Shown: piece by piece, positions 6,446 to 23,198 of the stretch
How positions within the stretch are numbered: the stretch's first letter is position 1
Layout: the number at the start of each line of letters is the position of its first letter
Notes under the pieces: model-generated
What the model was told of the DNA's origin: nothing
Seen by the model: the letters and a program-made list of their open reading frames with translations, nothing else
The model's database searches: none
Made by a program: the position numbers and the translations under genes
Assembly: GCF_019744875.1 (NCBI RefSeq)
Contig: NZ_JAIETU010000002.1
Coordinates: 496,001-560,000 of the forward strand
Source: Hyphomicrobium sp.
GTDB taxonomy: Bacteria > Pseudomonadota > Alphaproteobacteria > Rhizobiales > Hyphomicrobiaceae
DNA: 64,000 bases
Direction: 5' to 3'

Positions 6446-6466
6446 GAGGGTCTCGTTGTTCGTTAG

Positions 6467-9400
6467 CTAGACGACGGCGATCTTCGGCGTACCGCGGCCA
6501 TAGGTGGCGCTGATCTGATAGACCGCGACCGACAGTGTGCTTTGCGGCGCGCCGAAATCGGCCGTCTGGTGCGCGGCGGAATACGCGCACGCGGGCGCCG
6601 TGACGGACAGCGTCCGCACAACCGAAAGGCCGGACAGCACATCGACCTCGTAGCGCTCGCTGTCCTCGGCGAGGGGCACTTCCGTTGCGCCCCAGTTGTC
6701 GCCGCCGATGCGGGTCCGCCGCTTCCAGGTCATCGCGATGTCGCCCGCGCTCCGTGCTGCACGAACGTGCGCCGGAGACAGCGGGCGCAGCCCGCGGCCC
6801 GTAAAAGCATGGATCGCCGTCTGATAGGACGCGTGAGAGATGTCGCGCGTGGCAGGACCGTAGCGCCAATTGAGCGGAGCGCCGACCTCGCCCGCCGCGA
6901 GCGGCACGGCTGTGACCTCCGGGCCGAGCAGCACGAACGATGCGCCTGCCGCGAGGGGTGCGCGCATTTCGTTCTCGGTGCCGGCCTGCCCACGCAGCAG
7001 GTTCGACAATTCATACGTGCTCGCGCCGACGAGGGTCGCCGTTTCGAATTGCAGCACCTCCCAACCGCCGTCCGGATTGCGGATCGCGGCGGCGTTACGG
7101 CCAGCCAGCAGTTGCGTGCGCGTCACCGATTCCAGCGCGCCGCTGCCGAGCTTGACGCGCACGCGCGTGCCGCGATCCAAAAGGCCCACGACGCCCCGCG
7201 GCAACGGATCGAGCGTCTCGCCCATGACGGCGGGAGCCAGCGGGCGCGCACGCAGATCGTAGCCCGCGACCTCGGGCGAGCCATAAACCGCAATCGCGCC
7301 CGGCCAGGGCAATTGGAACGCCGCGACATATCCGGCGTCCGGCGCTTCATCGCCGCGCAGGAGCGGCAGGTCGAGAAATTCGAGATACGGCGCGCCTTCG
7401 AAGACTGGCGTGTCGACCGGGCTTCCACGCGGGCGCGGGGCAACGCCACCGTAGACATCGGGATCGATGCTCCGGCCTTCGATTTCCCGCAGGCCGCGCT
7501 CGCCCACCTCCGTCACACGCACGAGCAGGCTCGATCCGCCCTTGTCGACGGAGACGACATCACCCGGCTCGATGGCAAGCGCGCTCGGCGGCAACTTGAA
7601 CGCCGCCCGCTCGCGCGCGGCCCAGGCTTCGAACAGCCATGAGTCCGCGATCTGCGACGCACTCTCGTGCTCCAGCACGATAGGCAGGTCGGCGCGCGCC
7701 ACGCGCCCGCTCGCGCCCGCAAGACGGCGCGCCTCGGATACGGCCTGCCGGTAGTCGCCGCTCGCCGCGATGTGGTTGACCTTGGCGGAGGCGGGCAGAT
7801 CCGTTTCCTGCGCGCGCGTCAGCGTCACGAGCGCATCGCCCGCGCGCTCCTCGACGAGATCGTCCTCCGTCAGGTCGAGCACGGGGGCTGCGGCTCCACG
7901 ATGGCGGAACAGAATGCGCCCTTCGCTTTCGAGACTGTCGAAGAAGTAGGCCAGCTCGAGCGGCTGCAAGGCATCGCGCGGTGACATCAGGCGGTCGATG
8001 ACGTAGCCCGGCACGACGCCCGCAAGCTTCGACGCATCGGGGCCTGAGACGCCATAGTCCGTCATGATCTGGTCGACCAGCTCGGCGAGCGGGGCGGCCG
8101 AGAAGCGTCCGTTGAGCCAATGGCCGAGCCGCCAGTTCTCGCCGTCGCTCCAGATTTCAAGGTTGTAGGGGAAGGCCGGATAAGGCCGCGCATCCCAGCA
8201 ATAGACGTGGATGCGCGCCAGATCGACCATGCGCGCGCCGTACACGCTCGATACGGGATTGAGCCCCGTGACGTAGCGCGGGCTCGCCGGATCGAAGGCA
8301 TCGATCAGCGCCATCAGATACCGGCGCTGCACCAGGTCGTCGCGTACGCCACGCGAGAAATAGGGATAGGCGGACTCGGCGCTCTTCGGGTCGATGAACA
8401 CGTTCGGCTGGTTGGCGCCCTTGTCGACTGCGGGGCAGCCGATCTCCATGAACCAGAACGGCTTCGACTGCGGCACCCACGCGGTGGGCGATCCGCTCGG
8501 CACGCCCGCCGGGCGGTTGTGATGGAGGTTGAGCCACCACGACTTGATGTCCTTGTAGCGAAAGACCCACGGCTTACCATGCCCATCCGTGATCGCCGTG
8601 CGCACCTGCAGCTCGCGGTTCGACGTGTTGGCGTAATACCAGTCATAGCCCTCGCCGCCGGCCACGTTGGCGCGCAGGTAGTCTCCATCGTAGATGGCGC
8701 TCGCGCCGGCCTGCGCATCGAGATGCGTCGTGCCGTCACGCCAATCGGCAAGCGGCCAGTAGAGATCGATGCCGATGGCGTCGATGCCGGCGGAGGCCCA
8801 GAGCGGATCGAGATGAAAATAGACGTCGCCCGTGCCGTCGCCCGGGTGGTGGCCGAAGTACTCCGACCAGTCGGCGGCGTAGACGACTTTCGTGCCTGGC
8901 CCGAGCACGGTCTTCACGTCTGCTGCAAGCGCGATCAGCGCCGTGACGAACGGATAGGTGGACGCGGCGCTGCGAACCCAGCTTAGCCCGCGCAACTCGG
9001 TGCCGATGACGAACGCATCGACGCCGCCCGCCGCCTTGGCCAGGTGCGCGTTGTGCAGCACCATGCGCCGGAACGTCCACTCGTTGGGACCGGAGTAGGT
9101 GACGTTCGTGCCTGAGATGGAAAAATGTCCGATCGCCGCGGTGCCGACGAAGGCCGCGATCTGGCTGGCGGCGGTCGCCGTCTTGTCCGCCGTGCCCGGA
9201 CGGCCCGGCGCGGGATAGCACGTGATGCGACCGCGCCACGGATAGGAGGGCTGGAACGCCGCCGCGCTATAGGGATCCGGCAGCGCGTTGCCGTCCGCCA
9301 CGTCCATCAGAATGAACGGCGTCAGCACGACGCTCAGGCCGCGCGCCTTGAGGTCGGTAATCGCCTGGACGACAGACGCATCCGACGGCGTTCCGCCATA

Positions 9401-10420
9401 CGCGGGCCGGCCGTCCTTCTGGCTGACGAGATGAGCCGTCGCGCGCGTGAGTCCGGCTGCGCTCCATGTCACGGGCGTCGTGACCTTGGCGGTGGTGTCG
9501 ACGCCGGGCTTGATCCGGCATTGCGCCGCGCGCAAATCCGTGCCGAACCAGCTCACGACCAGCGACACGGATTTCGCATTCGGCAGTGTTGCCTGAAGCT
9601 GATCGATCGCGACGTTCCAATCCGCGCCGCCCTGCTTGGTGTGAACGTTCTCGGCATCCGAGATGCCCCGGCCGATGGATTTCGAAACGGCGCTCGTCGC
9701 GTAGACGAATTCTCCCGATCCTGGGATCAGCACGACGCCCTTGATGTCCTCTCCGAACGGCTCGACGGAGCGGTGCACTTCGAATGAGAGCTGCGGGATG
9801 CGATTGCCAAAATCCGCAAGCGCCATGTTCTCGAAGACGACGTAGGCGAGACCGCGATAGGCGGGCGCGCGCGCCGCGCCCTCGATGGCGACGACCGCCG
9901 GATCGGGCGCCTGCGTTTCGCTTCCCTCATGAAGACGATAGGTGAGCCGCGAGAGGTCGAGCTCCGCGCCGTCGGCCCAGATGCGGCCGATGCCGCTGAT
10001 CTCACCCTCGGCCAGCGCCACGGCGAACGTGGCCGAATAGCTGTACTCGGTCGTTTCCGTCACGGGGCCGGACTGCGGCGCGCCCTTGCCGCTGCCGCCC
10101 GAGCGCGACGTCCGGATCGTCTCGCGAATGTCGTCGCTCCAGATGATCTGGCCGCCGAGGCGGGCGCGCCCAAACAGCCGCGGGATCGGCGCGCCTTCGG
10201 TCGACGACGTGATGTGCAGATCGGAAAGGCGCGGCCCCTCGACGCTGCGTTTCTGGCCCGACGCGCCGAACAGCGCGTTGTCGATGTAGGATCCCGCGAA
10301 CGCGCCGATCTGGCTGCCTATGGTGGCGCCGGTCAGCGTCATGCCGAGCACGGAGAGGCCGGTCGGCAGCAGAGCTCCGCCGGCGGCGGCGCCGACGGCT
10401 GCGAGTGCGAGCGTGGCCAT
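6467..10420 (-). CDS. GTA gp15-like phage host-specificity / baseplate multidomain protein (GTA TIM-barrel)
   Basis: 1317 aa, largest cluster ORF at the distal end; 'ASTYPFVTALIALAADVKTVLGPGTKVVYAADWSEYFGHHPGDGTGDVYFHLDPLWAS', typical of the GTA_TIM domain. Confidence 0.92.
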   Translation of the reverse strand: MATLALAAVGAAAGGALLPTGLSVLGMTLTGATIGSQIGAFAGSYIDNALFGASGQKRSVEGPRLSDLHITSSTEGAPIPRLFGRARLGGQIIWSDDIRETIRTSRSGGSGKGAPQSGPVTETTEYSYSATFAVALAEGEISGIGRIWADGAELDLSRLTYRLHEGSETQAPDPAVVAIEGAARAPAYRGLAYVVFENMALADFGNRIPQLSFEVHRSVEPFGEDIKGVVLIPGSGEFVYATSAVSKSIGRGISDAENVHTKQGGADWNVAIDQLQATLPNAKSVSLVVSWFGTDLRAAQCRIKPGVDTTAKVTTPVTWSAAGLTRATAHLVSQKDGRPAYGGTPSDASVVQAITDLKARGLSVVLTPFILMDVADGNALPDPYSAAAFQPSYPWRGRITCYPAPGRPGTADKTATAASQIAAFVGTAAIGHFSISGTNVTYSGPNEWTFRRMVLHNAHLAKAAGGVDAFVIGTELRGLSWVRSAASTYPFVTALIALAADVKTVLGPGTKVVYAADWSEYFGHHPGDGTGDVYFHLDPLWASAGIDAIGIDLYWPLADWRDGTTHLDAQAGASAIYDGDYLRANVAGGEGYDWYYANTSNRELQVRTAITDGHGKPWVFRYKDIKSWWLNLHHNRPAGVPSGSPTAWVPQSKPFWFMEIGCPAVDKGANQPNVFIDPKSAESAYPYFSRGVRDDLVQRRYLMALIDAFDPASPRYVTGLNPVSSVYGARMVDLARIHVYCWDARPYPAFPYNLEIWSDGENWRLGHWLNGRFSAAPLAELVDQIMTDYGVSGPDASKLAGVVPGYVIDRLMSPRDALQPLELAYFFDSLESEGRILFRHRGAAAPVLDLTEDDLVEERAGDALVTLTRAQETDLPASAKVNHIAASGDYRQAVSEARRLAGASGRVARADLPIVLEHESASQIADSWLFEAWAARERAAFKLPPSALAIEPGDVVSVDKGGSSLLVRVTEVGERGLREIEGRSIDPDVYGGVAPRPRGSPVDTPVFEGAPYLEFLDLPLLRGDEAPDAGYVAAFQLPWPGAIAVYGSPEVAGYDLRARPLAPAVMGETLDPLPRGVVGLLDRGTRVRVKLGSGALESVTRTQLLAGRNAAAIRNPDGGWEVLQFETATLVGASTYELSNLLRGQAGTENEMRAPLAAGASFVLLGPEVTAVPLAAGEVGAPLNWRYGPATRDISHASYQTAIHAFTGRGLRPLSPAHVRAARSAGDIAMTWKRRTRIGGDNWGATEVPLAEDSERYEVDVLSGLSVVRTLSVTAPACAYSAAHQTADFGAPQSTLSVAVYQISATYGRGTPKIAVV

Positions 10421-10938
10421 CAGGTCTCAATCCCAGGAAAGGAGTAAACGGCGGCGACGCGGCGGCGCCACCATGCGGTGAACGGAATCTCGGCCGCCAG
10501 GCGATCCTCGATGGCGTGCACGATGGTGCCCGGCGTCGCGAGCACGGCCGCATGCTTGGCGACGGCGCCTTCCCGCATGCGAAAAACGAGCACGTCTCCG
10601 GGCGTTGCTCGCGCGATGTCCTTGCGGACGAGGTGGCGCGTGGCGGCTGCGATCAGCGTTTCCTCTCCGCTCGCCTCACCCCAGTCGCGCGAGTAGCCCG
10701 GCGGGCGCTCCGCTTCCGTGCCGTAGAGATCGCGCCAGACGCCGCGAATGAGCCCGAGACAATCCGTACCCACACCCTTCAGGCTCGCCTGATGATGATA
10801 GGGCGTTCCGATCCAGCTTCGCGCGGCCGCGACCACGTCGTCAGGCGTTGGGCGGATCTCGCGCGCGTGCTGGCTTTCTCCCTCCCCGGCTCTCGCAAGA
10901 GAGAGTGGTGCGGGGCGCGGTCCTGTCAGATTGGCCAT
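10420..10938 (-). CDS. GTA gp14-like NlpC/P60 peptidase
   Basis: 'VVAAARSWIGTPYHHQASLKGVGTDCLGLIRGVWRDLYG'; abuts gp15. Confidence 0.9.
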   Translation of the reverse strand: MANLTGPRPAPLSLARAGEGESQHAREIRPTPDDVVAAARSWIGTPYHHQASLKGVGTDCLGLIRGVWRDLYGTEAERPPGYSRDWGEASGEETLIAAATRHLVRKDIARATPGDVLVFRMREGAVAKHAAVLATPGTIVHAIEDRLAAEIPFTAWWRRRVAAVYSFPGIET

Positions 10939-10947
10939 GGTTAGTCC

Positions 10948-11817
10948 TCAGCGCGATTTGCCGGGCCGGCGAATGGCCGTCAGGAAGTCGTTGCCGGGCA
11001 TGTCGGGGAAGCCGCGGAAGTTCGCGACGTTGGCGAACTTCGCCTGGCAGGTCTCAACGCGCTTGTCGCATCCGGCCGTGATCGTGAATGTCTGCGCCGG
11101 CGTCAAAGGCAGACGCGCGCGACTCCAGATTTCAATCGTCACGACACCGCCGGCCTTGCCGTGGCTCTTCACTTCGATGGCCTGGCCGCTGGCCGCGCCC
11201 GACGTGAACGTCAATAGCCCGTGCGTGAACCACGCATCCTGGAAGGCCGAGAGACCGCTCACCGTAAAGCGCCGCGGGCTCTGGACGCTCACAATCGCGC
11301 CCGTGCCGCGATAGGCCGGATTGGTGAGGCCGATCCCGCAGCGCGTATCGCCGAGATCGGCATCGCAGGCGTATTGAAACAGCCGCCCCTTCGTTTCGCC
11401 GAGCCGATGGGCAAGGCCGCGCACTTCAGCCGCAAACACGATGCCGCTGCGCTTGACCTCGCCGAGGTTGCCGCTGCGCATGAGAGCGCGTTGCGCGGGC
11501 GCCGTCCAGTTGACGCGGAAGATCTCGACCGACGCATCGTCGTAGACGCCAGCCGCCAGATCTTCCTCATCCAGGCTGTCGGACGTGACCGCACTCGTGA
11601 TCTCGAGGTTGTCGACGCTGAGCCCGACCGACTCCCGCATTTCACTTGCCGTCATGCCGCTGGCGGCTTCGAACGTCGTTCCGTCGAACACCACGTCGCG
11701 GTCGTGATCGGTGAAGCCCTGCACCGTGCCGTCGCGGCGCACCAGCCGCCAACACCAGCACAGCGTCGTCGCCCCCGTTGCAATGTGTGCGGCAAGCCCG
11801 CTTTCGAGCTGCTTCAT
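10948..11817 (-). CDS. GTA gp13-like DUF2163/phage BR0599 protein
   Basis: 'TTLCWCWRLVRRDGTVQGFTDHDRDVVFDG' and 'CDKRVETCQAKFANVANFRGFPDMPGNDFL'. Confidence 0.92.
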   Translation of the reverse strand: MKQLESGLAAHIATGATTLCWCWRLVRRDGTVQGFTDHDRDVVFDGTTFEAASGMTASEMRESVGLSVDNLEITSAVTSDSLDEEDLAAGVYDDASVEIFRVNWTAPAQRALMRSGNLGEVKRSGIVFAAEVRGLAHRLGETKGRLFQYACDADLGDTRCGIGLTNPAYRGTGAIVSVQSPRRFTVSGLSAFQDAWFTHGLLTFTSGAASGQAIEVKSHGKAGGVVTIEIWSRARLPLTPAQTFTITAGCDKRVETCQAKFANVANFRGFPDMPGNDFLTAIRRPGKSR

Positions 11818-12452
11818 AGGCGGATCTCCACCACGGGAATGCTCGGAATGGCGCCACTCTGAAAGCCGGACAGGTTGATCTCGAGCTTGTCGGTATCGAA
11901 GCGCACCGGCACGTCGAACTCGAAGCCCGCCGTGACGAGCGCGCCATTGGCAGGCGCTTGCCCGCCCGCAAACGTGATGAGCCCGGTTGAGGCGTTGACG
12001 GTGAAGTGCGTGCCGAGGGTCCTGGTCGCGCCGGCGACCGCGATTTTCACGGTGCCTGACACAGGCTTTTTGATATCGCGCGCGTAGGGCGCGTGCGCGG
12101 CGCCGTAGGTCTTTTTAAGCTGGAACGTCAGCGCCGCTCCGGTGCCGGTGCCGATGACCTGATCGAGCGGCGTCGTGGCAGCGCCGGGCGGGCCGGATTT
12201 CCAATCCGCATGATCGCGCCAGCGGAACCCGTGGAAGCGTCCACGCCGCTCCTCGAAAAAGGCGATCACCTCATGCAGCGCATCGAGCGAGCGCACGCCG
12301 TAGCCCGCGTTGTAGCTCCTGCGCGAGTTGGCCCAGCGGCTGTTGCGCTCCTCGTAGCCGGAGCCGAGCACGACGACGTCCGTGCGACGCTCCGGACCGC
12401 CCTGCGCCCCGCGCGAAATCGCGGTCGGAAAGCGGATCTCGTGAAAGGACAT
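11814..12452 (-). CDS. GTA gp12-like DUF2460/TIGR02217 tail protein
   Basis: 'FHEIRFPTAISRGAQGGPERRTDVVVLGSGYEERNSRWANSRRSYNAGYGVRSL'. Confidence 0.93.
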   Translation of the reverse strand: MSFHEIRFPTAISRGAQGGPERRTDVVVLGSGYEERNSRWANSRRSYNAGYGVRSLDALHEVIAFFEERRGRFHGFRWRDHADWKSGPPGAATTPLDQVIGTGTGAALTFQLKKTYGAAHAPYARDIKKPVSGTVKIAVAGATRTLGTHFTVNASTGLITFAGGQAPANGALVTAGFEFDVPVRFDTDKLEINLSGFQSGAIPSIPVVEIRL

Positions 12453-12512
12453 GGGATCCTCCGGATTGGCAGTAGGCAGTGAGGCAGTCGGTCGTCGGGA
12501 AGTGCCTGCTGC

Positions 12513-13100
12513 CTACAGATTGCGTTGACCGAGCGAGACGGCGCGGCTCAGCATGGCGGCAACCTGCGTTTCCGATTTCAAGAAGCTCTGCGCGTCCTGG
12601 GCTTGGACGTTGACGGTGACCTGCACGCCTCCGCCGCCGCGCGATGCGATACCGAGACGGCCGTCCGGGCCGCGCGAGAGCGGCATGATGGCTTCCGCGC
12701 CGCGCTCGCCCGCGATGCCGTAGCGGCCGCCCGCGAGTGGAAATGCAATCGGGCTCTGGATCACGCCGCCCGAGGCGAACGGCACTGGCATCCCGCCCTG
12801 GAACGCGCCGCCCTTGGCAAAGCCGAGGCCGCCCGAGACAAGCCCGGACACTAGGTTTCCAAACCCCTGCTCCAGCGGTTTCAATGCGGCCTTGAGCACG
12901 ATGTCGGAAAGACGCAGTGCGAGGGTGCGCAGCACGTCGCCGACGTTCTTGCCTTTGATGGCGATCCCCTCGAAGGCGCCGATCAGCGCACTCGAAAACT
13001 GCCGCCCCATGCTCGCGGCCTGGCGCAGCTCCGTCTGCAGCGCCGTCGTGTCGGCGTTGATGGCGACCGTCCACGTTTCAACCGGCTGGTTGGCATCCAT
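12513..13100 (-). CDS. GTA gp11-like phage tail tape-measure protein
   Basis: 'LSDIVLKAALKPLEQGFGNLVSGL...GGVIQSPIAFPLAGGRYGIAGERGAEAIMPLSRGPDGRLGI'. Confidence 0.9.
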   Translation of the reverse strand: MDANQPVETWTVAINADTTALQTELRQAASMGRQFSSALIGAFEGIAIKGKNVGDVLRTLALRLSDIVLKAALKPLEQGFGNLVSGLVSGGLGFAKGGAFQGGMPVPFASGGVIQSPIAFPLAGGRYGIAGERGAEAIMPLSRGPDGRLGIASRGGGGVQVTVNVQAQDAQSFLKSETQVAAMLSRAVSLGQRNL

Positions 13101-13106
13101 GCGCGC

Positions 13107-13298
13107 TTATCCTTCGATTGTTGGGCGTTGCGTATCGGGGTAGCGCTGTTCGAGCGCGCTCAGATCCCGGCGTGACAGGGGCCGCTCGATCGACGCCGTG
13201 CCGAAGCGTCCGCGAACGGCCGCGTTGAGCTCGGCCAGTGTGAAGCTCCAGAACGCGCGCGGCTCCAGCCCCAGCAGACCGAAGCCGACCGCCATCAC
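13107..13298 (-). CDS. GTA gp10.1-like phage tail assembly chaperone
   Basis: 63 aa 'AVGFGLLGLEPRAFWSFTLAELNAAVRG'. Confidence 0.82.
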   Translation of the reverse strand: MMAVGFGLLGLEPRAFWSFTLAELNAAVRGRFGTASIERPLSRRDLSALEQRYPDTQRPTIEG

Positions 13299-13669
13299 GT
13301 CGTCCCAGGGAAAGGGCCGTTTGCCTCTCCCCTCGCGGCTTCACCCGGTTCCGTTCCGGGTGCTGCCGAGAACGTCGCGGCCAGCAGACGCGCAACGATG
13401 TCGACGTATCCCGCCGCCCCGCCCTCCGTGCGCATGGCGGCCACGGCCTGATCCGTGACGTCGAAGCCTCCGCCGCGCAGGCCCGCGCCGATAATGCGCT
13501 GGCAGTCGCGCGCCGAAATGCGCCCCTTCTCGAAGCGCGTGGCGAGCGCAAGCATGTCCTCCTCGCCGAACGCCGCCTCGAGATTGGCGAGCGCGCCCAG
13601 CGTGAGGCAGAGCTGATACGTCTTGCCGTCGAGCACGGCGTCGATCTCGCCCCGGTGCCGGTTTGGCAT
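13295..13669 (-). CDS. GTA gp10-like tail tube assembly chaperone
   Basis: 'NRHRGEIDAVLDGKTYQLCLTLGALANLEAAFGEEDMLALATRFEKGRISARDCQRIIGAGLRGGG'. Confidence 0.88.
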   Translation of the reverse strand: MPNRHRGEIDAVLDGKTYQLCLTLGALANLEAAFGEEDMLALATRFEKGRISARDCQRIIGAGLRGGGFDVTDQAVAAMRTEGGAAGYVDIVARLLAATFSAAPGTEPGEAARGEANGPFPGTT

Positions 13670-13696
13670 GCTGTCCTCCTTAGTTCGTTGCTGCAG

Positions 13697-14110
13697 CTAC
13701 GCGGCGGCGAACGTCAGCTCGCCAGCGGATTCGAGGGAAAGCTCGAAGCTCACCTCGCCGTCGTGCCTGCCGGTCAGCTCGAACGATGAAATCTGGAACG
13801 CGCCCTCGACCGTTCCGAAATCGGGCACGACCACCTGCCAGTCGCGGATGGTGCCATCGAATACGTAACTGCGGATGAGCGCATCCGACGCGGCATCCTT
13901 GAAAATGCCCGACCCCGAGATCCGGGCCGATCGCACGCCCGCGCCCGCCAGAAGCTCACGCCACTGCCCCACACTTTCCTGGTGCGTGATGTCCACGCTT
14001 TCGGCGTTGAACGCCACCGCGCGCGATCGCAATCCCGCAACCGTCGTGAAGCTGCCCGCGCCGTTGCTGTCGACCTTCAGGAGAAGGTCTTTGCCTTTCT
14101 GTGCCGCCAT
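13697..14110 (-). CDS. GTA gp9-like phage major tail protein
   Basis: 'AAQKGKDLLLKVDSNGAGSFTTVAGLRSRAVAFNAESVDITHQESVGQWRELLAGAG' (TIGR02126-like). Confidence 0.92.
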   Translation of the reverse strand: MAAQKGKDLLLKVDSNGAGSFTTVAGLRSRAVAFNAESVDITHQESVGQWRELLAGAGVRSARISGSGIFKDAASDALIRSYVFDGTIRDWQVVVPDFGTVEGAFQISSFELTGRHDGEVSFELSLESAGELTFAAA

Positions 14111-14171
14111 GTTTGGTCTCCTTTATTGTCGCTCACGCGCCTGGTCGCGCGCCGTCAAAGACGGCGCGCTT

Positions 14172-14244
14172 GCGCTCCGCTGGGGCGGCGCACTCGCGCC
14201 GGGTCGCGTCCAAGCGGAGCTTGGCTTCGCCAAGACGCTCCCGG
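14172..14244. repeat. Intergenic dispersed repeat, copy 1 (between gp8 and gp9)
   Basis: 'gcgctccgctggggcggc...gggtcgcgtccaagcggagcttggcttcgccaagacgctcccgg', near-identical to 15929-15998; flanked by 'cgctcacgcg' at about 14131 and 14270. Confidence 0.85.
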
Positions 14245-14298
14245 GCTGCGTTGCCGCAACGTGGTTGTTCGCTCACGCGCGTGGTCGCGCGCTTCGCA

Positions 14299-14709
14299 TC
14301 AGGCCGTCGGTTCGGTGACGGCGCGGAAGCGCGCGACGCCAGCGTAAATCTCGCCGTCCGATCCACGCGCCGCGTCGCTCAATTCGTGTCGCAAGCTGAT
14401 GAGGCGGTGGCCCGCCAGCACAAGCGACGCGTCGTGCAATGCCGTCCGAATGGCTTCGAGCACGAGATGCACCTGCTTCTCTCCGCCGGCTTTCGACCAG
14501 ACGCGGAGCGTCACGACGTGCTCGCTGCCGGTTTCCGTGCCGGTGCTCCAGTCGCGCGTGGTGCTCGGCCCAAACGAAACGTACGGAAGCGCTGCCCCGC
14601 GCGGCACGTCGTCGTAAACACGCGCGCCGCCGAGCAGCGCCAGCAAGGGCGCGTCTGCTATGAGCGCGGCAAAGATTGCCTTCTGTAACTCCCAAGCGGG
14701 ACTGCTCAT
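14299..14709 (-). CDS. GTA gp8-like DUF3168 protein
   Basis: 'SPAWELQKAIFAALIADAPLLALLGGARVYDDVPRGAALPYVSFGPSTTRDWSTGTETGSEHVVTLRVWS'. Confidence 0.9.
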   Translation of the reverse strand: MSSPAWELQKAIFAALIADAPLLALLGGARVYDDVPRGAALPYVSFGPSTTRDWSTGTETGSEHVVTLRVWSKAGGEKQVHLVLEAIRTALHDASLVLAGHRLISLRHELSDAARGSDGEIYAGVARFRAVTEPTA

Positions 14710-14906
14710 GGGCTGCCTCGCTTGCCGTCGGCCAACTCCTGCGCGCGCCGCTCGGTCATCAGGCGCACGTCGCGCCTCATCGCGGCTCGCGCTTCCCGCG
14801 CGGCGCGTTCTGCCTCCCGGCGCGCGATGGCGCGGCGGCGAATGTCCTCGACGCGGCTCGCCACATGGGCAAAGCCGAGCCCCACGACGTCGGCGGATAT
14901 CTTCAT
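14706..14906 (-). CDS. Small Arg/Ala-rich hypothetical protein within GTA cluster
   Basis: 66 aa from MKISADVVGLGF; start overlaps end of gp7, end overlaps start of gp8. Confidence 0.55.
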   Translation of the reverse strand: MKISADVVGLGFAHVASRVEDIRRRAIARREAERAAREARAAMRRDVRLMTERRAQELADGKRGSP

Positions 14907-15229
14907 GCGATGCGCTCCTCGGCCAGGCAGCGCAGGAACCGATGCCTTTCGCCCGTGTCGATCACGCTCCGAATCTCGAACACCCGCGTGCCGAGCCTGA
15001 AGCGCATCTCGGGCAGCACGCCCGTGCGATACCTGATCCAAATCTCATGGCTGACGCGTCCCGAGACGCCGTCCGCCTCGCTCACCTCGTTGCCCGAAAC
15101 CGGCTGGAGCGCGGCCCAGACTTCCGCAACGAGCGACCACGTGCGCGTCACGCCACCGCCGCCATCCGCGCTTGTCAGGGGCGCTTCGAGCTGCAGGCGA
15201 TGACGCATGTCTCCGATGGTCACGCTCAT
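14903..15229 (-). CDS. GTA gp7-like phage head closure/head-tail adaptor
   Basis: 'IGDMRHRLQLEAPLTSADGGGGVTRTWSLVAEVWAALQPVSGNEVSEADGVSGRVSHEIWIRYR'. Confidence 0.92.
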   Translation of the reverse strand: MSVTIGDMRHRLQLEAPLTSADGGGGVTRTWSLVAEVWAALQPVSGNEVSEADGVSGRVSHEIWIRYRTGVLPEMRFRLGTRVFEIRSVIDTGERHRFLRCLAEERIA

Positions 15230-15801
15230 AGCCGCACCTCGCGATAGGGCTTGAGCAGATCCGAAACGGCTGCCGGGATCAGAGCGGCGGCCTGGCCGAT
15301 TTCGAGCGGATCGCGGTGCTCGTACCAGTGCGCCACGAGCAGCAGGATGGCGTGGCGGATCGGTGCGGGAACATCGGCGGCGATTGCCCCGATGCCGGCC
15401 TCGAACTCGATTTCAATTCCGGCGTGCGCCCGTCCCGGCGCCGTCCATCCGCCGTTCGGGATCAGGCGCGGCGACAAGGCCTGGCCGTCGAGCAAGTAGC
15501 GATCGCTCGTGATGAGCGTTGCGTCGCCGTTCGCGTCGTAGAGCGTGACGGACGTCACCGCCGCAATGGGGCGCAATGGAAAACGCACCGGCTCGCGGCC
15601 CGGCGGCCATTGATCCAGCGTCAGCCGCCAGCCTTGCGTGATCAGCGCGAGCCCCAGCGCGGCTTCGACGTGCAGACGCGAGGTGACGATCAGGCTCGCG
15701 ATCAGAATGTCTTCAGCGGAACCATCGAGGCGCAGATGGGCCTTCGCCTCGGAGACCGTAACCGGCTCCACGGCGGGCCCGCTCGTCAAAGCGAGGGACA
15801 T
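15226..15801 (-). CDS. GTA gp6-like head-tail connector
   Basis: 'PVTVSEAKAHLRLDGSAEDILIASLIVTSRLHVEAALGLALITQGWRLTLDQWP'. Confidence 0.92.
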   Translation of the reverse strand: MSLALTSGPAVEPVTVSEAKAHLRLDGSAEDILIASLIVTSRLHVEAALGLALITQGWRLTLDQWPPGREPVRFPLRPIAAVTSVTLYDANGDATLITSDRYLLDGQALSPRLIPNGGWTAPGRAHAGIEIEFEAGIGAIAADVPAPIRHAILLLVAHWYEHRDPLEIGQAAALIPAAVSDLLKPYREVRL

Positions 15802-16172: not shown

Positions 16173-17420
16173 CTACGCTTCGAACTTCAGGAGCTTGATG
16201 GCGTTGAAGTCCTGTACGCCGCCGCCGACGCGCTTGGTCGTGTAGAAGAGCACGTACGGCTTCGACGAGAACGGATCGCGCAGCACGCGGATGCCGACGC
16301 GGTCGACGATCAGATAGCCGCGCCGAAAATCGCCGAACGCCACCGAGTAGCTGTCCTCGGCCATCGCCGGCATATCCTCGGACTCGACGACCGGATAGCC
16401 CAACAGCAGCGACGGCTCGCCCGCGCTGGCCGCCGGCTGCCACACGTAGTGGCCGTCGCCGTCCTTCATCTTGCGGATCGCCGCCTGCGTGCCGCGATTG
16501 AACACGAACGTGCCGTTGCCGCGGTAGCCTGCCTTCACCGTGTAGATGAGGTCGATCAGCTTGTCGGCCGGATTGCTGGCCGGAAACGCCCCGTCGACGC
16601 CGGTCGTGATGTAGCCGATGTTCTCCCAAGCCCAGGAGCCGTTGGCGACCTTGGTGTAGTCGAGAAAGCCCCTCGGCTTGGCGCTGCCGTTACCCGAGAC
16701 GAACGCCGTGCCTTCCTGCTGGGCGAAGGTGTCGCGCACCTCCTCGGCGATCCACTCGTCGATGTTGACGGCGCTGTCGTCGAGGAGCGTCGAGGTGGCC
16801 GCCGGCATGGCATAGAGCTCCATGGTCGGGAAGGTCAGCTCATCGAGCGTCGGGGTGGCCGTCTGCGTGCGCGCCGCCGTCTCCGCGACCCAGCCCGTGA
16901 CCGCACCCGTGATGGCGAAGGGCTTCTTGTACACGGAGCCCGACACCTGCCGCACCGAGGCGATGGAGCGGATCGGAGAGATATCCTTCAGCGCCGAAAT
17001 GACGGCGCGCTCGGTCTCGTCCGGTACGAGATAGCCGCCGTCTGCGCCCGCATTCGTCGAGACGGCGAGCGCCTTGGCTTCGAGGCGCGACAGGTTCGCG
17101 GTCTCGCCTTTGCGCACGTAGTCGTTGAAGGCGCGCCGATGGTCGCGCACCGCCGTCGTCTCGAGCGTGCTCGCGCCGCCGAGATGCGGGCGCTGCGCCT
17201 TGACGGCCAGGGCGTCGGCGACGCGCTTGGTTTCGTCGAGGGCCCGGTCGAGGCGGGCGAGCTTGTCGTCGATCAGCGGATCGGAGGCGGAGCGGCGCTC
17301 GAGATCGGCCAGGCGCTCGTCGTTTGCGTCCTTGTAGCTCTCGAAGGCGCGCATGAACTCCTCGAACGCCGCGCCGACACTGCCGCCGGACTTCGTTTCG
17401 AGTTGGGTGGGGTCTGTCAT
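16173..17420 (-). CDS. GTA gp5-like HK97 major capsid protein
   Basis: 'LSRLEAKALAVSTNAGADGGYLVPDETERAVISALKDISPIRSIASVRQVSG'; start at MTDPTQLETKS. Confidence 0.95.
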   Translation of the reverse strand: MTDPTQLETKSGGSVGAAFEEFMRAFESYKDANDERLADLERRSASDPLIDDKLARLDRALDETKRVADALAVKAQRPHLGGASTLETTAVRDHRRAFNDYVRKGETANLSRLEAKALAVSTNAGADGGYLVPDETERAVISALKDISPIRSIASVRQVSGSVYKKPFAITGAVTGWVAETAARTQTATPTLDELTFPTMELYAMPAATSTLLDDSAVNIDEWIAEEVRDTFAQQEGTAFVSGNGSAKPRGFLDYTKVANGSWAWENIGYITTGVDGAFPASNPADKLIDLIYTVKAGYRGNGTFVFNRGTQAAIRKMKDGDGHYVWQPAASAGEPSLLLGYPVVESEDMPAMAEDSYSVAFGDFRRGYLIVDRVGIRVLRDPFSSKPYVLFYTTKRVGGGVQDFNAIKLLKFEA

Positions 17421-17448
17421 GATTTCTTCCTCTTGGATGCGATTGAGA

Positions 17449-18186
17449 TCATTGCTTGAAGAGAGCGCGCGCGGCGTCGCGTATACGGACCGCGAGACGC
17501 GCCTCGTCCGATTGGCCCGAGCTCGCATCCCGCAAAGCCTTGAGGCCCGCGAGGCCGCCGCGGAGCACCGCGCGCGCCTCGCTTCTCGTCAGCCCAGCAT
17601 CCCGCGTGAGCCAGCGTTCGAATTCCCGCTCGGTCGGGGGAGCCGCCGAGAACGGTGTCTGTTTGGCCGACGTGATCCGCGCGTCCGGCAGCAGCGGAAA
17701 GGTCACGATCGAGATTTCCCAGAGGTCGATTTTTTCGAGGCGGCGCACTCCGGTCACGCGATCGCGCCGCGCGCGCGCCGCCTTGAAGCCGATGGAGAGG
17801 CCGTCCAGCGCACCCACTCGCATCAGCGCCATCACCTCACGCGCGCGGGCCACATCGCGCATCAGGCGGCCCTGGGCATAGAGCCCGCGGCTGTCCTCCT
17901 GCAGCGTCGTCCAGATGCCGATCGGCTGGTTTGCGTCGTGCTGGTAGAGCAGCTTCACACCGCGTGCGCCGCGTTGCGCGAGGCTCTCGCGGAAGGCGCC
18001 CGGCAGTACGACGTCGCGGCCGAGATCTTCGCGATTGAAGAGGCTCGCATAGCCTTCGAACGTGCCGTCGATATCCGCCCGCTTGAAGTCGAGGGACGTG
18101 AACTTCACCTCGGGCACGGGAAGATGCTCGGAAGGCGGCATCGCAAATCCTGCCCGTTCCCATGCGCGAATGGCCATGCGGTTCAT
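17449..18186 (-). CDS. GTA gp4-like HK97 prohead protease
   Basis: 'DGTFEGYASLFNREDLGRDVVLPGAFRESL', 'GALDGLSIGFKAARARRDR...IDLWEISIVTFPLLPDARI'. Confidence 0.94.
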   Translation of the reverse strand: MNRMAIRAWERAGFAMPPSEHLPVPEVKFTSLDFKRADIDGTFEGYASLFNREDLGRDVVLPGAFRESLAQRGARGVKLLYQHDANQPIGIWTTLQEDSRGLYAQGRLMRDVARAREVMALMRVGALDGLSIGFKAARARRDRVTGVRRLEKIDLWEISIVTFPLLPDARITSAKQTPFSAAPPTEREFERWLTRDAGLTRSEARAVLRGGLAGLKALRDASSGQSDEARLAVRIRDAARALFKQ

Positions 18187-18233: not shown

Positions 18234-18265
18234 AAACAAAAAAGCCCGAGCGGGGCTCGGGCTTT
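18234..18265 (-). terminator. Rho-independent terminator between immunity array and prohead protease
   Basis: Minus strand: AAAGCCCGAGC-CCC-GCTCGGGCTTT followed by TTTGTTTGG. Confidence 0.8.
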
Positions 18266-18330
18266 CAGCGGGCGCTCATTGGCGCGTTCGGTTCGGCGGA
18301 TGTTCCAGACGGTTTCTAATGAGCATGAAA

Positions 18331-18360
18331 ATCGCTCGTCAGCGCCTCGATCTGGTCACT
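18331..18360 (-). repeat. Portal-gene remnant B'' ('DQIEALTS')
   Basis: 26-nt exact match 'tcgctcgtcagcgcctcgatctggtc' to portal gene at about 20488-20514; about 20 nt downstream of the 18383 immunity-like gene. Confidence 0.85.
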
Positions 18361-18382: not shown

Positions 18383-18757
18383 TCAGCGGCGACTGGTTTC
18401 GAGGACGCGGCGCGTCACAAACCAGAGATCGTCCCATTCTGGACGTGGCGAACCCTTCGCGACCCACTCCGCTACAATCGCGGCTGCACGTTCCTCATTG
18501 GTCGAGCCATAGTTGATCTGTTCGACCCAAGTCAACGGGCCCTCGGCAGCGAACAGAACCGGGACCGCCCCCGAGTCCAGAAGTCTCAACATGCAGAGCC
18601 GCAGGAACTCCTGCAACTCCTCACGCTCATACCCTAGATGCTGCGCAGCGTTTGCAATCCTGAACCACGACTCACCATCCCCGTCGATTTCGTTCGGCAG
18701 CCACTGCAAATATTGTCTTGCTGAATACCTGGAATGAGAACGGCTGAGATCAATCAT
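18383..18757 (-). CDS. Orphan immunity-like protein (paralog of 18878..19291)
   Basis: 124 aa; 'FLRLCMLRLLDSGAVPVLFAAEGPLTWVEQINYGSTNEERAAAIVAEWVAKGSPRPEWDDLWFVTRRVLETSRR' closely matches the neighbouring ORF. Confidence 0.7.
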   Translation of the reverse strand: MIDLSRSHSRYSARQYLQWLPNEIDGDGESWFRIANAAQHLGYEREELQEFLRLCMLRLLDSGAVPVLFAAEGPLTWVEQINYGSTNEERAAAIVAEWVAKGSPRPEWDDLWFVTRRVLETSRR

Positions 18758-18776
18758 CGCAGTGGATCCTCATTCC

Positions 18777-18830
18777 GGGCCGCGATGAAGTCCATGTCCT
18801 TCGGCGAGAGCGACAGCGGTTTCCAATGGA
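18777..18830 (-). repeat. Portal-gene remnant A' ('WKPLSLSPKDMDFIAARN')
   Basis: About 50 nt nearly identical to portal gene 20726-20780; encodes the portal peptide WKPLSLSPKDMDFIAARN in frame, then EDPLR and a TGA overlapping the ATG of the next immunity-like gene. Confidence 0.9.
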
Positions 18831-18877
18831 GACCCGCAGCCGGCGGCTCGCATATGCAGCATCGGGCGACGTCTCGG

Positions 18878-19291
18878 CTACTCAGCCCGATTTGGGATAT
18901 CCGCCGGCTCACGACGATCAGTTTCCAACACGCCACGCGTCACGAACCAAAGCCAATGCCACTCTGGATCACCACCGCCCGCCTCTAGCCATTCCGCGAC
19001 AATCGCATCCGCGACCTCCTCGTTCGACGAGCCGTATTGCGTTTGCTCGACCCAATTGAGAGGACCTTCGTCGGCATGGCGCACGGCAACCGCACCAGCT
19101 TCGAGGAGGCGCAATACGCATAGCCGCACGAACTCCGCAAGCTCGTCCCCATCGAAGCCGAATGTTCGGCCGCCGGGAACTATTCGCCAAAGGCTCTCAC
19201 CGTCGCTATCGATGTAGTAAGATATCGTTTCGATATAATTCGAGACGGTATCCTCAGGTGCATCGCGACGACTGCGCTTCATCTCAATCAT
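18878..19291 (-). CDS. Orphan immunity-like protein
   Basis: 137 aa from MIEMKRSRRD; 'FVRLCVLRLLEAGAVAVRHADEGPLNWVEQTQYGSSNEEVADAIVAEWLEAGGGDPEWHWLWFVTRGVLETDRR'; acidic; in the toxin-immunity array. Confidence 0.7.
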   Translation of the reverse strand: MIEMKRSRRDAPEDTVSNYIETISYYIDSDGESLWRIVPGGRTFGFDGDELAEFVRLCVLRLLEAGAVAVRHADEGPLNWVEQTQYGSSNEEVADAIVAEWLEAGGGDPEWHWLWFVTRGVLETDRREPADIPNRAE

Positions 19292-19392
19292 TGCAGGATA
19301 CTCGCTCCAGCATTGAAGGCTCGAACACCCGAACACGTCATTGGTGTCGCACGCTTGTCGTTTGGGATGCCTGCCTCCGGCAGGACACTTCG

Positions 19393-19433
19393 CGTTCGCT
19401 CGTCAGCGCTTCGATCTGATCGAGGTCGGGGCG
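19393..19433 (-). repeat. Portal-gene remnant B' ('RPDLDQIEALTSERE')
   Basis: About 40 nt, few mismatches, to portal gene 20484-20524; begins two codons after the stop of the 19437 ORF. Confidence 0.9.
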
Positions 19434-19436
19434 TGA

Positions 19437-19673
19437 CTAGTCGCTTTCATACTCATCGGGGAACCCCAGAAATACTTCTCGAAGCTCCTCATTACCCAAG
19501 TCACCGAGCTGATTGCTCAGTTCGTCATATTCGTGCGGCTCAAAAAAGCCCCACTCCATCAATGCCGCGAGATAACCTTTCCAGAGAAGAGTGACTGTGT
19601 CGCTGTTACTGCGACGCCTGAGGTGGATGGAAATGCGGCTCAGCATTTCCTCTTTAGTCGGGACGCTTGCCAT
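19437..19673 (-). CDS. Predicted cognate immunity protein for the portal-fused toxin
   Basis: 78 aa acidic protein (MASVPTKEEMLSR...LREVFLGFPDEYESD); starts 3 nt after the portal-toxin stop codon; lower local GC. Confidence 0.65.
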   Translation of the reverse strand: MASVPTKEEMLSRISIHLRRRSNSDTVTLLWKGYLAALMEWGFFEPHEYDELSNQLGDLGNEELREVFLGFPDEYESD

Positions 19674-19676
19674 GAC

Positions 19677-21602
19677 TCACGGTTTCCTCACTGTTGATAT
19701 AGGTCCTTGGGGGGTGAATATCGTAATACTATCTATTCCGCCTTTTTGGGCATCGACACCGAACGCGCGCTTAATGGCCCGCTCTGCCACATCACGTGTC
19801 ATTCCCGCCTGATCTCTGGCGTTGACGACAATGTCTCGCGCCTGACCGCGTGCGTCCAGGATTCGACTCGATATTGCAGATGATAATCCCTCTTCATCCG
19901 TTCTCTTGACACCCGATACCGTTTTTAGCTCATGGGGCTTGCCGTTCAGTTTCACATCCGGTGTCCGCCCAGCGCCTCTCGGTACAATCTCCACTTCGTT
20001 GCCGAGGTCGCGCATCTCCTCGAAGAAGCGCCGCTCGTCTGGGGTCACGTCGTCCAGCTTGCCAGTGATTTTTCCCGGCGTAGGCTTCTTCGTAAGAAAG
20101 TCAGGGAGCTTTTCCGGAACCTTCGGTTTGGCTGCCAAAAGACGACGCGCCAATTCCTGAAGAAGCTTAGCTCTATTGGCGACTTGAGTTCCCGCTTCGG
20201 TTGGCTTCTTTCTTCGCGGCGCGCCGACGCCGCTCGCGACGCTCGTGCCGAGGCGACTGCCGCTTCCACCACCTGATCCGCCGCCCTCGTCCACCCACTG
20301 GCCGCCGTCGGCGTCGCCGCGAGGCGCGCGGGCTTGGTCGGGGCGATACTTTCTTAAAACGGACGATTGTTCGCTTTCCGTCGCAGCGGGCGGCGGCTCT
20401 TCGAGGGGCGTGTAGCCGACTGCCGCGCGCTTCTCGTTCAAGGTGAGGAAGCTCACCTTTTCGATGCGAGCCCACAAGGCCTCACGCTCGCTCGTCAGCG
20501 CCTCGATCTGGTCGAGGTCGGGACGCAACTCTAGCGACGTATTCCAAGCAGGCGCCAGCCACGACGCCAGCGCCTTCGCCGTACGCGTGACGAGAGGCAG
20601 CACGGTACTTCTCCAGAAGGCGCGCTGCGCTTCCTGGTAGTTGGAAAACGTGTTGTCGCCCGGGATGCCGAGCAGCATCGGGGGCACGCCAAACGCCAAC
20701 GCGATCTCGCGCGCGGCCCCGTTGCGCGCCGCGATGAAGTCCATGTCCTTGGGCGAGAGCGACAGCGGCTTCCAGTCGAGACCGCCCTCCAAGAGCAGCG
20801 GACGCCCGGCGCGCTTCGGGCCCTGGAAGCCATCCTCCAGCTCGGCCTTCAGACGCTCGAACTGCTCAGGCGACATGCGCCCGTCAGCGCCGCCGTAGAC
20901 GAGCGCGCCCGAGGGCCGCGCGGAATTGTCGAGCAGCGCCTTGTTCCAGCGGCCGGCCGTGTTGTGGATGTCGATGGCCTGCGCCGCGGCCTCGATGGGG
21001 CTCATACCGTAGTGGTCGTTGACCGGATGGAACAGGCGCACGTGCAGGATCGCGCGCACGCCCGAAACCGGCTCCTCCTCGAAGTGGATCGTGCGCCCGC
21101 CGCACGTGTACTCGTAGGCCTCGGGCCATCCCTCGGCGCCGGGCACCACCTTCATGCGGTCGGGGCGCAGTGCGTGCAGCTCACGGAGCTTGCCGTCGAG
21201 TGCGACCGCTTCCACATAGGCATTGCCGGCGACGAGCAGGTAGCCATACCAGGCTTCGAGAAAATCCGTGCCGGTCTGGTCGAGGCTCGGGCGCGCAAGG
21301 AGATCGAGCAGCGGATGATGCTCCTGCTCGTCGTCGCCTTCATAGAGGAGGAGCGGCACGGAGGCGGCGGCCTCTGCGATCATGCGCACGGCGCGGTAGA
21401 CGATGGCGTTCTGCATGAAGCCTTCGCGGGCGAAGGCCTCGTAGTCGCGCGGCGTCCACACCGGGCGGCCGAGCGTTTCGAGCAGGATGAGCGGACCGGT
21501 GGCGCTGGCCTTCTCTTCGTGCGCGACGGCGCTGCGCAAGGCAGCATCTGGCATCGCCGGGCGAGACCAAAGTCCCGCCAGCGTCTCAAGAATACGCGGC
21601 AT
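19677..21602 (-). CDS. GTA gp3-like portal protein with C-terminal polymorphic-toxin-like nuclease domain
   Basis: Portal: 'YEAFAREGFMQNAIVYRAVRMIAEAAASVPLLLYEG...GMSPIEAAAQAIDIHNTAGRWNKALLDNSARPSGALVY...FGVPPMLLGIPGDNTFSNYQEAQRAFW'. Linker 'RPDQARAPRGDADGGQWVDEGGGSGGGS'. C-term 'TPDERRFFEEMRDLGNEVEIVPRGAGRTPDVKLNGKPHELKTVSG...GQARDIVVNARDQAGM'. Confidence 0.9.
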   Translation of the reverse strand: MPRILETLAGLWSRPAMPDAALRSAVAHEEKASATGPLILLETLGRPVWTPRDYEAFAREGFMQNAIVYRAVRMIAEAAASVPLLLYEGDDEQEHHPLLDLLARPSLDQTGTDFLEAWYGYLLVAGNAYVEAVALDGKLRELHALRPDRMKVVPGAEGWPEAYEYTCGGRTIHFEEEPVSGVRAILHVRLFHPVNDHYGMSPIEAAAQAIDIHNTAGRWNKALLDNSARPSGALVYGGADGRMSPEQFERLKAELEDGFQGPKRAGRPLLLEGGLDWKPLSLSPKDMDFIAARNGAAREIALAFGVPPMLLGIPGDNTFSNYQEAQRAFWRSTVLPLVTRTAKALASWLAPAWNTSLELRPDLDQIEALTSEREALWARIEKVSFLTLNEKRAAVGYTPLEEPPPAATESEQSSVLRKYRPDQARAPRGDADGGQWVDEGGGSGGGSGSRLGTSVASGVGAPRRKKPTEAGTQVANRAKLLQELARRLLAAKPKVPEKLPDFLTKKPTPGKITGKLDDVTPDERRFFEEMRDLGNEVEIVPRGAGRTPDVKLNGKPHELKTVSGVKRTDEEGLSSAISSRILDARGQARDIVVNARDQAGMTRDVAERAIKRAFGVDAQKGGIDSITIFTPQGPISTVRKP

Positions 21603-21701: not shown

Positions 21702-23198
21702 TCAAAGTTGCCGGATGGACGGTGCGGCGGCGCGGTCGAGCATCAGATCCGTAATGGCCCAGACCAGCGCATCGACGCGGTCGGGGCTGCGGCCGCGAGA
21801 CAATCCGTCGGCGCCGAAGGCGAGCATCTGTTCTTCGAGTGTCGCGTGCAGGCCCACATGCGCGATGCGGCCCTCGGCGTAGAGCGCGGCCACCGGCTCG
21901 GCGCGCAGCCACTTGCCGCGCGTGGCGCGCACGGTGCGCACCGCGACCGTCTCGTCGATCTGGCGAAGTATTGCGATCACGAGATCGCCGCCCTGGTTGA
22001 CCTCGGCCACGACGCGATCGGCCATGAACTCCTGATAGGCCCGCACGGCGGCGCGTGCCCAGACGTGCGGCTCGCGGCCCTGCAATGAACGGTCGGCCGC
22101 GATGTAGGCGCGCCCGTCCGCGCCGAGCCCGGCCACGACAATTCCGCACGCGTCCGAGTTGGCGGTCGCAGTCACCGGCGGATCGACGGCGACGACGATG
22201 CTCGTCAGCTCCGGACATTCCTTGACGCGATGGCGCTCAATCCAGTCGCGGCGCCACAGGCTGCCGGACTGCTCGTCGACGATCTCGCCCATCAGCTCCT
22301 GCCGGCCGAGCGCGGTGCCCGCATAGCGCCGCTCCATTTCCGCAATGAAGGCCGGCGCCAGATGCGCGGCGTTGGCGACTGTGGCCGCGCGCGTGATGAC
22401 GGTCGCGGGATCAGCCATGATCGCCTTCAACATCGGCAGCGGGCGCGGCGTCGTCGTCACCGCGATCGACGGGGACGATCCGAGACGCATGCCGAACTGA
22501 AGCATGTCCCAGGTCTCCTCGGCGCGACGCCACTTGGCGAGCTCATCGCACCATGCCGCATCGAATTGCGGCCCGCGCAGACTGTCCGGATCCTCGGCCG
22601 AGAACATCTGCGCGATGCTCCCGTTCGGCCAGACGAGCTGGGCCTTCGTAATCTCAAGCTCGGGGCGCTCGCCATCGGCATGGATCGCGAGCAGGCCCGA
22701 GACGCCATCGATCATCACGCGCCGCACATCGCCCAGCGTTTCGCCGATCAGGGCGATGCGGCGCGCAGGCTCCGCTCCGAGCGGGGCGATGCCGAGCGCC
22801 TTGGCGCGCACCCACTCGGCGCCCGCCCGCGTCTTGCCCGCGCCGCGCCCGCCGAGGATCAGCCAGACGCGCCAGTCGCCGCCACCGGCAGCGTTGCGCG
22901 GGGGAAGCTGATCATCGCGCGCCCAGACCTGCCAGTCGCCGAGAATGAACGCGAGCGTCTCAAGATCGAGACCCGCCAGGACCTCGGGCAATCGGCCCGC
23001 CTCCGCCGAGGCGTTCAAGACGCTCCGCAATTTCGCGGCGCATGCGCTCCGCATCGGTTCCGGCCGCGCTTCTGGCGCGGCTTGCTCCCCGGTTGTCTTC
23101 CAATTCAGCGACGGCCTCCGTGACCTTCTCGAAGTTGCTGATAAGGGTCGCGAGGGCGCGGCTTTCGCGCTCCTCGTCCTGGGCCGAACGGTCCTCAC
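21702..23198 (-). CDS. GTA gp2-like large terminase (start possibly internal, about 23054)
   Basis: Walker A 'LILGGRGAGKTRAGAEWVRAKALG', 'RIALIGETLGDVRRVMIDGVSGLLAIH', 'FDAAWCDELAKWRRAEETWDMLQFGMRLG'. Confidence 0.95.
   Translation of the reverse strand: MRTVRPRTRSAKAAPSRPLSATSRRSRRPSLNWKTTGEQAAPEARPEPMRSACAAKLRSVLNASAEAGRLPEVLAGLDLETLAFILGDWQVWARDDQLPPRNAAGGGDWRVWLILGGRGAGKTRAGAEWVRAKALGIAPLGAEPARRIALIGETLGDVRRVMIDGVSGLLAIHADGERPELEITKAQLVWPNGSIAQMFSAEDPDSLRGPQFDAAWCDELAKWRRAEETWDMLQFGMRLGSSPSIAVTTTPRPLPMLKAIMADPATVITRAATVANAAHLAPAFIAEMERRYAGTALGRQELMGEIVDEQSGSLWRRDWIERHRVKECPELTSIVVAVDPPVTATANSDACGIVVAGLGADGRAYIAADRSLQGREPHVWARAAVRAYQEFMADRVVAEVNQGGDLVIAILRQIDETVAVRTVRATRGKWLRAEPVAALYAEGRIAHVGLHATLEEQMLAFGADGLSRGRSPDRVDALVWAITDLMLDRAAAPSIRQL

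Follow-up and report, generated by a model that had tools for sequence, protein, structure and literature searches.

A 64,000-nucleotide stretch of Hyphomicrobium sp. DNA, referred to below as the window, contains the gene cluster of a gene transfer agent (GTA) whose portal gene runs on, in frame, into a C-terminal domain of the kind found in the toxins of contact-dependent growth inhibition (CDI). Directly behind it lies a small gene predicted to encode the matching immunity protein. Is the extension a toxin, and what would a toxin do on a portal? Our comparisons of related loci indicate that the GTA portal is a new carrier of toxin-immunity systems, hypervariable across a bacterial family, and we hold it very probable that a polymorphic toxin-immunity system is carried on this portal.

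The portal gene and its C-terminal extension

The portal gene and its extension form one uninterrupted frame of 641 amino acids on the minus strand (21602-19677), as a sequence-only reading of the window had claimed. Residues 15-402 align with residues 8-395 of the 396-residue portal of the Rhodobacter capsulatus GTA (RcGTA; 6TBA). Since this match stops at residue 402, all residues beyond it are extra compared with a standard GTA portal. The in-frame extension measures 239 amino acids and begins at about position 20396, slightly before the start given in the sequence-only reading, and its nuclease-like part is confined to residues ∼508-641 (20081-19677). The features of the fusion and of its predicted partner are as follows.

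20397..21602, minus strand: GTA portal core (HK97 type), residues 1-402 (RcGTA 6TBA, E 2.7e-130; Pfam Phage_portal, 1.6e-94; TIGR01537)
20082..20396, minus strand: linker and pre-toxin region, residues 403-507 (whole-portal AlphaFold2 model; linker variants precede other toxin types in related portals)
20274..20348, minus strand: pre-toxin motif YRPDQARAPRGDADGGQWVDEGGG, residues ∼419-443 (kept in other portal-toxins and displaced cassettes)
19677..20081, minus strand: C-terminal toxin domain, residues 508-641, with a PD-(D/E)xK-like core containing D and E-L-K (Pfam; alignment; AlphaFold2)
19437..19673, minus strand: predicted cognate immunity gene, 78 amino acids, 3 nt past the portal-toxin stop (homologues lie directly 3' of homologous toxins)

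The assignment of the extension to the CDI-type polymorphic toxins comes from Pfam, in which CdiA_C (PF18451) covers residues 546-633 (19704-19967) with an E value of 1e-6 and a score of 29.2 bits, above the curated cut-off of 26.6. By this family match, the domain is of the type that the sequence-only reading had recognized on the portal. Only Phage_portal and CdiA_C scored above cut-off in the fused protein (P0001), and MuF gave no Pfam match at E ≤ 1. Searched alone, the toxin domain had no match in the PDB at E ≤ 10 or among phage records, and plasmids yielded a single weak CdiA-like match, in Rhizobium. PADLOC returned no matches.

The same early reading had proposed a PD-(D/E)xK nuclease core, and part of that proposal fits our data. 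An AlphaFold2 model of the toxin alone, built from three input sequences (predicted local distance difference test [pLDDT], 81; predicted TM-score [pTM], 0.76), places the elements in the order alpha-beta-beta-beta-alpha-beta, which together with a D(x8)ExK motif fits nucleases of this group. The D, E, and K are invariant in five aligned GTA-locus copies of the toxin; the CdiA-like Rhizobium copy reads ELA in place of ELK. The assignment rests on motif and predicted topology, and we regard it as tentative.

A normal portal crown, a doubt that the early reading had raised against itself, was considered for the extension and rejected. In the whole-portal AlphaFold2 model, residues 403-475 and 491-506 are modeled with low confidence and are predicted to be disordered, with a helix at 470-490, and the toxin appears as a separate domain of modest confidence. 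The disordered linker carries KYRPDQARAPRGDADGGQW and leads into the toxin domain. Within the linker, the pre-toxin motif follows a consensus, [KF]YR.DQPRVPAG..GGQW.D, that recurs in portal-toxins, in displaced cassettes, and in stand-alone cassettes of other families.

The composition of the region also differs from its surroundings: GC content is 0.65-0.70 in the flanking GTA genes versus ∼0.52-0.62 over the extension, the toxin, and the genes downstream, a drop already pointed out from the sequence. An IMG/VR metagenome contig (L158) is 100% identical over the locus, a second (L159) has the same arrangement with a portal identity of 88%, and the assembly of Hyphomicrobium zavarzinii ATCC 27496 (G007) shows the same architecture with a different C terminus; these three rule out two genes joined by an assembly error. 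Between the window and L159, identity declines from 92% in the portal core to 80% in the linker, 71% in the toxin, and 49% in the immunity protein. The ratio of nonsynonymous to synonymous substitution rates (dN/dS) for the toxin in this comparison is 0.18, which indicates purifying selection and thus a toxin maintained as a protein.

Toxin types, partner genes, and the resident GTA

The 78-amino-acid gene had been taken for the toxin's partner in the sequence-only reading, and its distribution agrees. Homologues of the window pair occur in G057, in G096 (two copies), in L159, in the IMG/VR GTA contigs L192-L194, and in G349, where the toxin sits on an unrelated 622-amino-acid protein. Among the 103 family genomes, members of the 78-amino-acid family are confined to the window genome, G057, G096, and G007, in the last as an orphan within its array. 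Judged by these pairings, which recur across other genera, the 78-amino-acid protein is the specific partner of the window toxin. A PDB search with it (P0002) returned nothing meaningful.

Portals were matched in 70 of the 103 Hyphomicrobiaceae genomes, and portal classes were compared at the 51 loci whose portal core was usable. C-terminal extensions longer than 60 amino acids were present in 17 of the 51; most of these have recognizable toxin types, and two (L063 and L109) are without an assigned one. Cassettes lie beside an unextended portal at 6 loci, other inserts are found at 5, and a contig edge cuts the locus at another 5. The remaining 18 portals, two of them from the same genus as the window, are plain, meaning that the protease start lies within ∼140 nt of the portal-core end. 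All portals that we found outside the Hyphomicrobiaceae (40 order-level loci, hand-picked for long frames or long matches and not a random sample, and 21 named loci) stop within ∼100 amino acids of residue 400, and none has a recognizable toxin.

At least six C-terminal types are fused to homologous portals; variable C termini, which the early reading had suggested looking for in other GTA portals, do occur. Clustering gave T0 ("RIM...YYYRYR"; 12 copies), T1 (RNase A-like; 10 copies), T2 (4 copies), T3 (4 copies; nucleotidyltransferase-like by eye), and T4 (3 copies; the CdiA_C type of the window), with smaller types that include T7 (WHH/Colicin-DNase; 2 copies). Matches above the curated Pfam cut-off were also obtained for CdiA_C in G057, for RNAse_A_bac (PF18431; 3.6e-17) fused to the G060 portal, and for WHH/Colicin-DNase (∼1e-14) in a displaced cassette of G012.

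The next gene goes with the toxin type: I1 follows T0 in 11 of 12 cases, I3 follows T1 in 6 of 10, I4 follows T3 in 4 of 4, and I8 follows T4 in 3 of 3; the gap in the main pairs ranges from -37 to +23 nt. We counted 81 concordant toxin/partner pairs, whereas 10,000 shuffles gave 12.7 on average and never more than 36; the shuffles ignore relatedness, and the same pairs are nevertheless found in different genera. By this measure, every major toxin type is paired with a partner gene of its own, which would neutralize it. On the portal tree, the toxin type switches ∼10 times among 16 portals. The window and G007 portals are neighbors in the tree with different toxins, and sister portals that are ∼90% identical likewise bear different toxins.

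Several variants of the arrangement were seen in passing. A pre-toxin segment common to types T0 and T3, RVRELDPxWRPxPS...EGAI...EA (L010, L068, L073, L092, and L106), is possibly an entry or processing module, by analogy with the cytoplasm-entry domains of CdiA. In one clade (L075, L076, and L169), the toxin is a separate open reading frame (ORF) shortly past the portal stop (3 nt in L076) and is not fused. A metagenome-assembled genome of the Bradyrhizobiaceae (L058) has a plain GTA portal, and its GTA cluster includes three stand-alone cassettes in which the same GGQW linker recurs: after the terminase (5708-6232), after the protease (10142-10813; HNH-like), and after the capsid gene (14273-15109; zinc HNH-like). 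Shinella (L059, 7881-8597; L060, 7869-8588) has a stand-alone gene of 238-239 amino acids in which a zinc HNH-like domain comes after the same linker and pre-toxin segment; in L059 the gene lies near dnaK/dnaJ, away from any GTA portal.

The region downstream of the fused gene holds more than the sequence-only reading had described, which missed the portal-gene fragments and two further immunity-type genes:

19390..19438, minus strand: portal-gene fragment, copy of 20482-20530, 86% (direct repeat)
18878..19336, minus strand: orphan immunity-type gene, family I2, at most 152 amino acids, probable start ∼19291 (I2 genes follow T2 elsewhere)
18768..18834, minus strand: portal-gene fragment, copy of 20717-20783, 88% (direct repeat; tblastn 95% over portal residues 274-294)
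18383..18757, minus strand: second orphan immunity-type gene, family I2, 124 amino acids (clusters with the gene at 18878..19336)
18332..18357, minus strand: portal-gene fragment, copy of 20488-20513, 100% (direct repeat)
18240..18266, minus strand: intrinsic terminator at the end of the cassette array and immediately ahead of the protease gene (12-pair stem and T run; fold z -5.0)

I2 genes come after toxin type T2 in G052 and G049, and in G003 a 143-amino-acid I2 homologue overlaps the T2 end and is the toxin's partner there. Because the I2 family belongs with T2, the two I2 genes of the window most likely once served toxins that are now lost and persist as orphan immunity genes. Each comes after a portal-gene fragment, and by their sequence relationships we interpret the two as leftovers of displaced cassettes, as in CDI loci. 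Across the survey, 57 pieces of portal fragments peak at portal residues 341-480, with zero from residues 1-120; the repeated segment is thus the one immediately ahead of the toxin. The longest array, in G012, extends over 7.9 kb with up to about eight cassettes. The terminator hairpin is found at the same place in G007 (L010, ∼11090) and G003 (L013, ∼1160; both in portal-plus orientation), so that a terminator between cassette array and protease gene is conserved in three Hyphomicrobium genomes. At L011 and L012, both plain, no such terminator was seen between portal and protease. The conserved terminator may exert a polar effect on the later GTA genes or may require antitermination.

The cluster around the fused portal gene extends from the terminase to the tail genes and a lysozyme and sits between PBP1A and a response regulator:

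21702..23198, minus strand: GTA terminase large subunit (PF03237/PF17289)
17449..18186, minus strand: GTA prohead protease (S78) (PF04586, 3.4e-36)
16173..17528, minus strand: GTA major capsid protein, listed ORF, true start probably ∼17420 (RcGTA major capsid protein, E 1.2e-101)
5330..15801, minus strand: other GTA tail and lysis genes (syntenic; order kept in G001, G005, G007, G048, and G053)

Among solved structures, RcGTA is the closest for both portal and capsid. The same locus and order are found in three further genomes of the genus and two of another genus (G001, G005, G007, G048, and G053). By homology and synteny, the portal gene is part of a complete RcGTA-type cluster at a fixed chromosomal locus across the genus. 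In one genome, G003 (L013; G003:C56), a single fragment is the only portal match, and the GTA genes have been lost from a point inside the protease gene through to the lysozyme gene, but this locus still contains a toxin-like ORF and an immunity gene.

Proposed mechanism and alternative explanations

How might such a portal work? The sequence comparisons support an arrangement in which residues 1-402 form a normal portal ring, the flexible linker holds the CdiA_C-family nuclease, and the 78-amino-acid gene encodes the putative immunity protein. They likewise support the entry of new toxin/immunity cassettes by recombination in the portal segment immediately ahead of the toxin, with older cassettes shifted downstream, each with a piece of portal gene, and decaying until orphan immunity genes are left, such as the two in the window. 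We propose further that the immunity protein would protect the producer from toxins held inside the particle. The portal crown faces inward, so the C termini would face the head interior. The RcGTA portal is a dodecamer (PMC7296036), and up to 12 toxins could thus lie within each GTA head. Set free by proteolysis or particle disassembly, they would travel with the ejected DNA to the recipient periplasm and then the cytoplasm, where they would harm cells without the matching immunity gene and spare kin.

Taken whole, the statement that the GTA portal is the scaffold of a polymorphic toxin system, with cassette exchange, packaging in the head, and delivery that harms nonimmune cells, seems to us likely. 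For delivery by GTA particles to other cells, we see the probabilities as evenly balanced. The idea of armed GTAs, in which portal-borne toxins are delivered together with host DNA and contact is survived only by cells that possess the matching immunity gene, is put forward tentatively, as a possibility that we slightly doubt.

Several observations weigh against this mechanism. Foldseek comparison of the toxin model with the PDB gave no match at E ≤ 0.001, only weak matches to XisH-type proteins and Hjc, so that the proposed nuclease core finds no significant structural counterpart. The portal remains in the particle, and the toxin must therefore be released from it. Import is a further difficulty, one that CDI toxins meet as well. 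RcGTA ejects its DNA into the periplasm (PMC7296036), from which a toxin would need its own further route inward. The terminator ahead of the protease gene could lower the expression of later GTA genes. A scan of the immunity genes for promoters, limited to the sigma-70 consensus, found none; with these genes located inside the GTA cluster, kin that are not producing GTA may be unprotected. Immunity expression in such kin is the weakest link of the mechanism.

Could the toxin act in the producer instead, by aiding lysis, by arresting growth, or as an addiction module against cells that lose the locus? GTA genes are typically on in few cells, which lyse, as established for RcGTA; the cassette array ends in its own terminator; and G003 keeps its toxin-like ORF and immunity gene although only one portal fragment is detectable there and the protease-to-lysozyme stretch is lost. 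However, action in the producer would make the fusion to a head protein needless and leaves unexplained the rapid swapping of toxin types, the type-specific partners, and the orphan immunity genes of other types, which together suggest conflict between strains. We consider it unlikely. It is very improbable that the extension is a weapon of the GTA or its host directed at rival phages or other GTAs and not at cells. The domain is located in the packaging module, and fusions of phage head and portal proteins with effectors proposed to act against host immunity have been described (PMC9503650), but the domains named here are of the CDI/colicin kind with dedicated partner genes, and the PADLOC search was negative.

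If the extension were simply a normal part of the portal with a structural or DNA-processing role, such as an extended crown or a packaging nuclease, its in-frame fusion to a packaging protein and its nuclease-like motif would be accounted for. Such a part should not be dispensable in 18 family portals, two from the same genus, nor differ in domain type between close relatives; the RNase A-like types have no packaging role, and the linker is predicted to be disordered. We therefore give this explanation even less credence than the preceding one. An assembly error or chance read-through that fused two genes is of negligible probability given the identical and the 88%-identity contigs and the many fused portals in other genomes.

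If the armed-GTA mechanism is true, kin alone would receive transferred genes and the making of GTAs would bring a return as warfare, two consequences that would help to account for the retention of GTAs. GTA upkeep is a long-standing puzzle, in that the producer is killed to spread random DNA. A portal that diversifies rapidly as a toxin carrier offers an answer that can be tested directly: its producers may profit from the harm done to competitors and from sharing DNA with kin only. It also adds a carrier class to the polymorphic toxins and would be a natural case of protein cargo built into a phage-like head. In many genomes, the annotated "portal protein" would also be a predicted toxin.

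Comparison with known systems

One closely similar system is CDI (CdiA-CT/CdiI), with which this one shares an interchangeable C-terminal toxin past a conserved pre-toxin motif and, immediately 3' of the toxin, a small specific partner gene. Displaced cassettes are common to both, as are orphan immunity genes and the toxin families CdiA_C and CdiA-CT RNase A. CDI loci hold orphan toxin/immunity modules and orphan immunity genes (PMC9086364). The carrier differs: here it is a GTA portal without a secretion signal, in CDI a secreted two-partner filament, and delivery here, if any, would be via a phage-like particle. CDI proper, with a filamentous-hemagglutinin CdiA and a CdiB transporter, was rejected on the grounds that the carrier is a portal protein and the neighbors are GTA genes.

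In the literature we searched, which did not extend to subscription papers or preprints, we found no report of GTA toxins or of GTA, portal, and toxin domain together. The nearest precedents are the MuF toxins of temperate phages (Jamet 2017, PMC5576092; Bxa, PMC11699363; proposed in Zhang 2012, PMC3482391) and the phage portal/MuF effector fusions (Iyer et al. 2022, PMC9503650). MuF toxins are likewise head-protein fusions in the packaging module, near portal and terminase and with adjacent immunity genes; they kill bacteria and are neutralized by the adjacent genes (PMC11699363). In the window, however, the toxin is borne by the portal itself (12 copies in RcGTA) instead of by the minor head protein MuF, a chromosomally fixed GTA takes the place of the temperate phage, and displaced cassettes with carrier-gene fragments stand in tandem. 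A MuF phage toxin proper was rejected, as no MuF domain is fused to the toxin. The effector fusions described by Iyer et al. place enzymatic domains on portals and are thought to be packaged and injected; they are Nudix, 2H, or ART domains in phages with a proposed counter-defense role, whereas the domains here belong to CDI/colicin families, have partner genes, and occur in a GTA. With RcGTA and RcGTA-like agents, the cluster shares its portal, capsid, protease, terminase, and tail genes, their order, and a fixed chromosomal location; the RcGTA portal differs in ending at 396 amino acids without a toxin, with no cassette array between portal and protease.
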